The notes below the pieces were generated by a model. The model had not been told where the DNA came from, made no database searches, and saw only the letters and a program-made list of their open reading frames with translations. Shown here in pieces: positions 62,057 to 62,373 of a stretch of 64,000 nt of DNA; position 1 is the first letter of the stretch, and every line of letters begins with the position of its first letter. Source of the stretch: Treponema sp. (GTDB lineage: Bacteria; Spirochaetota; Spirochaetia; Treponematales; Breznakiellaceae); NCBI GenBank assembly GCA_009781635.1, contig WQXU01000011.1, positions 1 through 64,000 of the forward strand. Direction: 5' to 3'. The position numbers and the translations under genes are program-made.

Positions 62057-62081
62057 TATCTATTTTAGATATTAAAAAATG

Positions 62082-62214
62082 TAAGCAAGGCAGACTGCGC
62101 CCAGCCCTGCCGGCTCCGGGCGGCTGTGGCTGCAATTGACGCACATTTTGATGTGGCCGGCTAGGACTTCACACCGAAGTCGCCGGCAGAGCTGGGCGCA
62201 GTCTGCCTTGCTTA
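62082..62214. repeat. 133-bp GC-rich structured palindromic element
   Basis: A perfect 24-bp inverted pair (62082-62105 and 62191-62214) extends after one mismatch by 8 bp (62107-62114 and 62182-62189), giving a 33-bp stem. Inside it are further hairpins: CCGG/CCGG (62116-62119, 62157-62160), CACAT/ATGTG (62142-62146, 62151-62155) and GACTTC/GAAGTC (62165-62170, 62176-62181). G+C is far above the AT-rich flanks. It lies between the NDK gene and the tRNA gene. Mobile repeat, structured RNA or terminator are the options. Confidence 0.85.
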
Positions 62215-62263
62215 AGTTTATTCTATAATTGATTTAATTTTATTATTGAAGAATTACACTTAA

Positions 62264-62293
62264 TTGACATTACATTAAAAAAATTGATATATT
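62264..62293 (+). promoter_or_regulatory. tRNA-Glu promoter
   Basis: TTGACA (62264-62269), 18-base spacer, TATATT (62288-62293), about 8 bases before the mature tRNA 5' end. Confidence 0.6.
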
Positions 62294-62301
62294 AATTATA
62301 A

Positions 62302-62373
62302 GGCCCCTTCGTCTATCGGTCAGGACATGAGATTCTCAATCTTAAAAGAGGAGTTCGATTCTCCTAGGGGCTA
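62302..62373 (+). tRNA. tRNA-Glu(CTC)
   Basis: The 72-base gene folds into a cloverleaf. The acceptor GGCCCCT pairs with AGGGGCT (one G-T). The anticodon arm is TGAGA-TTCTCAA-TCTTA with anticodon CTC, and the T arm is GGAGTTCGATTCTCC. The discriminator is A, and CCA is not encoded. It reads GAG. A -35/-10 pair lies just upstream. Confidence 0.92.

Follow-up and report, generated by a model that had tools for sequence, protein, structure and literature searches.

The GC-rich, 133-nt palindrome between an ndk-like gene and tRNA-Glu is best explained as one copy of a dispersed, non-autonomous MITE-like element of a termite-gut Treponema genus that probably acts as a minus-strand RNA hairpin, a reading to which we assign a probability of about two in three. 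The window, by which we mean the whole 64,000-nt stretch analysed, holds this copy only: a second one was searched for throughout and none was found, in agreement with the earlier note. The element is without coding capacity. Its copy number, spread, empty sites, arm covariation and strand-specific excess of wobble pairs are direct observations. Among the options that the earlier note had left side by side, a MITE-like repeat is favored by the many dispersed copies, the empty sites, and the inverted-repeat ends of the better copies. A structured RNA is partly supported by the covariation and the wobble excess, the strand concerned being the complement of the one that had been read.

The element is closed by a 33-bp stem (P1), whose arms had been correctly recognized as complementary apart from a single mismatch, a C·A. 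Its GC content of 63%, against 40.5% for the window, bears out the described contrast in composition with the flanks. Folded as plus-strand RNA, the element has a minimum free energy (MFE) of -94.5 kcal/mol and a z-score of -10.8, and 0 of 200 shuffled sequences were equally stable; folded as RNA of the opposite strand, it has a z-score of about -11. A scan for intrinsic terminators, a short GC stem with a U-tract behind it, gave 0 sites, consistent with the earlier view that this is not a usual terminator. The palindrome goes on past the 33 bp into AT-rich flanks, where it is weaker, over a median of 59 columns in 87 copies and over 67 in the window copy. The features of the locus are collected in Table 1.

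Table 1. Features of the element and of the ndk/tRNA-Glu locus (window coordinates; a dot marks features given without a strand).
Feature	Position	Strand	Basis
ndk-like gene, 391 aa	60881..62056	+	ORF; synteny with tRNA-Glu in relatives
Probable full inserted DNA	62057..62259	.	Approximate; AT-rich flanks weakly palindromic; ~200 bp excess over the G022 locus
P1 left arm, 33 nt	62082..62114	.	Complementary to 62182-62214 with one mismatch; arms covary among copies
Element core	62115..62181	- (RNA strand, inferred minus)	Alignments of 10 and 20 copies; strand analyses
P2 5' side, CGGCTGTGG, one bulged C	62121..62129	. (+ strand sequence)	Pairs with 62169-62176
P3 hairpin, CACAT-TTTG-ATGTG	62142..62155	.	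All cells (100%) paired over 20 copies; double changes at 3/5 pairs
P2 3' side, TCACACCG	62169..62176	. (+ strand sequence)	Copy alignment, covariation
P1 right arm, 33 nt	62182..62214	.	Partner of left arm; covariation
Sigma-70-like promoter of tRNA-Glu, TTGACA-18-TATATT	62264..62293	+	Promoter scan, rated good
tRNA-Glu(CTC)	62302..62373	+	

The interior differs from the one first proposed. Three inner hairpins do appear in the MFE fold of the single sequence, but the comparison of copies supports two stacked helices, P2 and P3, within the outer stem, and the MFE hairpin GCGGC/GCTGC of the window sequence is not conserved in other copies. P2 of the window copy is CGG(C)TGTGG paired with CCACACCG; across copies it takes the form CGG(bulge)YGTGG/CCACRCCG, with a compensatory change from T-A to C-G in the L008 and G021 copies. 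P3 is a 5-bp helix with the family form CACGC(4 nt)GCGTG; in its place the window copy has CACAT/ATGTG, and G014 has CAGGC/GCCTG. The conserved part of the element, ~75 nt, consists of the core and the innermost pairs of the stem.

The element belongs to a family. A search of its own genome (2.77 Mb, 51 contigs) gave ten more loci, 11 with the window copy included. The family is present in 22 of 40 same-genus genomes, all termite-gut Treponema MAGs, and reaches about 30 copies in some of them. In an order-wide sample of 119 genomes, the carriers were four members of this genus, counting the own genome, and one member of a different genus within the taxonomic family. A pattern search of named contig records matched 43 contigs, nearly all from termite-gut Treponema/Spirochaetaceae MAGs, with the host read from the isolate names. 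Most copies are single, dispersed, in both orientations, and next to core genes; by crude ORF calls, 22 of 113 lay under an ORF. Inverted doublets occur in G048, G043, and G141. In the 23S-5S rRNA spacer, a copy sits at the same operon position in G000 (C19, L016) and G012 (C164, L070), so some insertions are probably older than the split of these two species. One copy lies on a viral contig (L218:1976-2108), where its start falls roughly on the stop codon that ends a small ORF and a tail-fibre J-like gene is nearby; phage and plasmid records searched with the element gave no match. Another (L201:342-473) lies on a 3.7-kb contig filed as a Bacteroidales MAG, which points to either mis-binning or inter-phylum transfer. 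A practical point is that some contigs, in MAGs such as G008 and G048, end at a copy.

At the window locus, the element begins 25 bp past the ndk stop codon, upstream of the tRNA-Glu promoter. Several relatives have ndk and tRNA-Glu in the same order but lack the element. In G022, the ndk stop is followed directly by TCCTTAATTGACA, the tRNA promoter region, and the window locus has ~200 bp more than that of G022 ahead of CTTAATTGACA. Because relatives share this locus without the element, the window copy is an insertion. The ndk-like gene itself is much longer than is normal for its kind (the usual Ndk has about 150 aa), and by eye it resembles two Ndk-like halves; its length is kept in relatives.

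The better copies also carry ends. Side-by-side comparison of the arms revealed terminal inverted repeats outside the stem. G040 and G001 have the CAGAAATRTATGCC type, of which G021, G052, and some G000 copies show variants; other types occur in G044 (GTACGCAAAGGGG) and G048 (CTAAACTTGACCCACA). Such repeats, clear in copies of G040, G001, G044, and G048, are not recognizable at the window copy, and some other copies likewise have no recognizable ends. Copy ends are too variable in the arm alignments to be fixed, and a clear target-site duplication was not found in them. The CAGAAATRTATGCC motif is strongly over-represented in the genus, with 46 occurrences in G040, 37 in G013, and 20 in G001, where the reversed-pattern control gave 0. 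At many sites, both orientations of the motif (CAGAAATRTATGCC/GGCATAYATTTCTG) close other giant hairpins, the inspected cases of which (L269-L288; G040, G013, G001, G041) measure 71, 114, 122, 172, and 224-270 bp and have interiors unrelated to the window core; in G001:C79, the same motif closes a window-type core within 174 bp. Since these ends close unrelated giant hairpins, the window family is one interior type of a MITE-like superfamily, and the combination of ends and core varies from lineage to lineage. Direct tandem repeats of one element end, with a period of about 111-118 bp, were seen at G040:C10:40883-41132 and C8:101659-101783.

Pairing of the arms has been kept while their sequence changed. 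The outer arms are highly divergent among copies, within one genome too, yet still complementary; double changes were found at 37 of 45 pairs, and 87% of cells pair. The covariation score was 0.414, against 0.156 for shuffled and at most 0.10 for slid alignments, and was slightly higher on the opposite strand (0.444). Individual genomes have arm subfamilies of their own. Young copy pairs differ chiefly in one arm, and old pairs mostly show two-arm changes, a pattern that fits stepwise compensation and is also compatible with template-switch correction.

The mispairs in the stems point to one strand. On the plus strand, A·C occurs 156 times and G·T 47 times in the stems of 113 distinct copies, beside 2839 Watson-Crick pairs. 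Grouped into 52 similarity clusters, the copies show more A·C than G·T in 34 clusters and the reverse in 4 (p = 6e-7), with the A·C excess distributed over many stem positions. An A·C on one strand is a G·U on the other, so on the window's minus strand these mispairs are wobble pairs, which the copies tolerate. Of 81 copies outside the training set, 59 scored better with the minus-strand than with the forward model (p = 7e-6, related copies not being independent). Where the flanking genes are co-directional, their transcription would produce the minus strand in 27 of 39 cases (p = 0.02, a modest bias obtained with simple ORF calls), and divergent gaps are the least common fully resolved context. 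Our interpretation is that selection acts on an RNA hairpin made from the minus strand of the window, mainly in read-through transcripts. Transcription-associated C-to-T mutation, the main alternative to selection, could also give the asymmetry. For the copies behind ndk and in two rRNA spacers, the adjacent upstream transcript would be of the plus strand, which counts against a strict strand rule. Curated Rfam 15 families, searched on both strands of the window region and of other copies, gave no relevant match.

These data bear unequally on the other explanations. A structure specific to the locus, whether an ndk terminator or a tRNA-Glu leader, would suit the position of the element just behind ndk and ahead of the tRNA promoter, but is scarcely credible: a U-tract terminator was not found at the element, relatives have the same locus without it, and it recurs at ten further loci of the genome. 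As an explanation of the whole family, it is refuted. More serious, though unlikely in our judgment, is a purely DNA-based account, in which the palindrome is the substrate of a hairpin-recognizing transposase or recombinase, pairing is kept by transposition from master copies and by arm-to-arm template-switch correction, and transcription is irrelevant. Watson-Crick pairs do dominate, with wobble at about 5% even on the favored strand; the genome-specific arm subfamilies are such as bursts would give, and ends are conserved in sister families whose interiors are unrelated. What this account leaves unexplained is the one-strand excess of A·C over G·T, and the prevalence of one-arm changes in young copy pairs also speaks against it, although correction is still compatible with that pattern.

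An integron-type folded site, as the earlier note had considered, would make the element an attC-like site of an unrecognized cassette system, with the folded single strand as substrate and the accessory genes between copies as cassettes. In G021, same-strand copies are spaced at 0.7-2 kb and enclose small accessory genes, which would agree with this, as would the nuclease, DUF433/DUF5615, and CopG-type genes found between copies and the extrahelical base in P2. We nevertheless regard it as very improbable. The integron integrase profile TIGR02249 scored over its cut-off in 0 of 40 genomes; conservation lies in the core, whereas the aligned arms, read by eye, share no sequence at the hairpin base and show no R'/R'' box pattern (RYYYAAC/GTTRRRY); and copies are mostly single and dispersed, in either orientation, beside core genes. 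A tyrosine recombinase of ~400 aa (G000:C49:901-1710 and same-genus genomes) matches the IntI profile on both sides of ~55 unmatched positions; it often lies near the ends of small contigs, with no hairpin nearby in the contigs checked. The REP-like option fails in its strict sense: the element is not a REP/REPIN because RAYT transposases do not track its copies, and RAYT (Y1, PF01797) had no match in the copy-rich G048, G021, G008, G003, G052, and G040. Both IntI and RAYT were rejected as mobility enzymes.

The DNA enclosed by copies or ends gave leads of another kind. ORFs between copy pairs (G003:C2, G003:C153, G052:C127, G040:C2, and the G021 arrays) and in spans between end motifs (G041:C11, G013:C1, G040:C8, C22, and C10) are accessory or ordinary genes, with no DDE or HUH transposase recognized among them, and a related autonomous transposon was not found between the paired ends inspected. 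Rpn/Transposase_31-type PD-(D/E)XK genes (TIGR01784) lie beside or between copies at G048:C76 (L303), G048:C47 (L304), G052:C114 (L305), G012:C86 (L306), and G021:C182 (L058). At G048:C76, the end of the gene runs into the hairpin, with a further partial copy upstream; at the Rpn loci checked in the own genome, no copy was nearby. We treat the Rpn-type genes as a lead only. Accessory genes near or between copies (L148, L282, L067, L058) include a DUF433/DUF5615 pair, a CopG-type antitoxin, a PemK toxin, and a restriction-like nuclease, PDDEXK_13; these toxin-antitoxin-like and nuclease genes are a further lead.

For the MITE-like RNA hairpin that we favor, transposition, transcription, and processing are the steps that we infer. 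An intact copy is a long imperfect inverted repeat made of terminal inverted repeats, an AT-rich stretch, a GC-rich stem of 20-35 bp, and the two-helix core. Copies would spread by transposition in trans and settle chiefly in intergenic DNA. Transcribed mainly as read-through from a neighboring gene, the minus strand of the window would then fold into a long double-stranded RNA hairpin. By analogy with the Neisseria CREE, the most likely effect of this hairpin is on the end of its carrier transcript, through RNase III-type processing or protection or through slower 3' decay. A wider version, tentative and on balance doubtful, holds that the core is a functional cis-acting processing, stability, or regulatory RNA made from one strand, joined to different transposon ends in different lineages, carried by MITEs to many gene ends, and also bounding exchangeable accessory genes.

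CREE, ERIC, and REPIN are known examples of small palindromic repeats, but for elements of this kind it is seldom clear whether the hairpin matters as RNA or only as DNA. The more than 100 diverged copies available here, their arms hypervariable yet covarying, permit a test of the strand, and its result points to RNA. The series of hairpins in this genus, with common ends and differing interiors, makes the roles of ends and core separately testable. In open-access text, we found no account of such elements in termite-gut treponemes.

Among known systems, ERIC/IRU and REPIN are the more distant analogues. As described, the ERIC/IRU/RU repeats (PMC2229807, PMC2759123) are MITE-like and intergenic, with enterobacterial units of about 127 bp that are similar in size to the Treponema element; the latter belongs to another phylum, and the comparison is by description only. 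REP/REPIN sequences (PMC3116915) are likewise dispersed extragenic hairpins that form inverted doublets, but the Treponema units, at about 130 nt or more, are larger than the short REPs and have no RAYT association. The attC sites of Treponema integrons (PMC3607928) share the folded imperfect palindrome with an extrahelical base, whereas the present element is dispersed, without IntI, and has no R boxes at its base; in the termite-gut species T. primitia and T. azotonutricium, no integrons were found (PMC3607928). Closest in its probable working is the CREE of Neisseria, a non-coding element with inverted repeats round a conserved core and evidence of mobility, by a mobilizing mechanism described as undetermined, whose RNA stem-loop is bound or cut by RNase III (PMC2649163). 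Like CREE/NEMIS (PMC2649163), the Treponema element is short, non-coding, dispersed, and genus-restricted, has inverted repeats and a conserved core, occurs in phage DNA, and has no transposase of its own; it would also form a stem-loop in RNA, here predicted from sequence. Unlike in CREE, its stem is longer and GC-rich, with hypervariable and covarying arms, and we claim neither membership of that family nor a sequence relation to it: the likeness described is one of organization.
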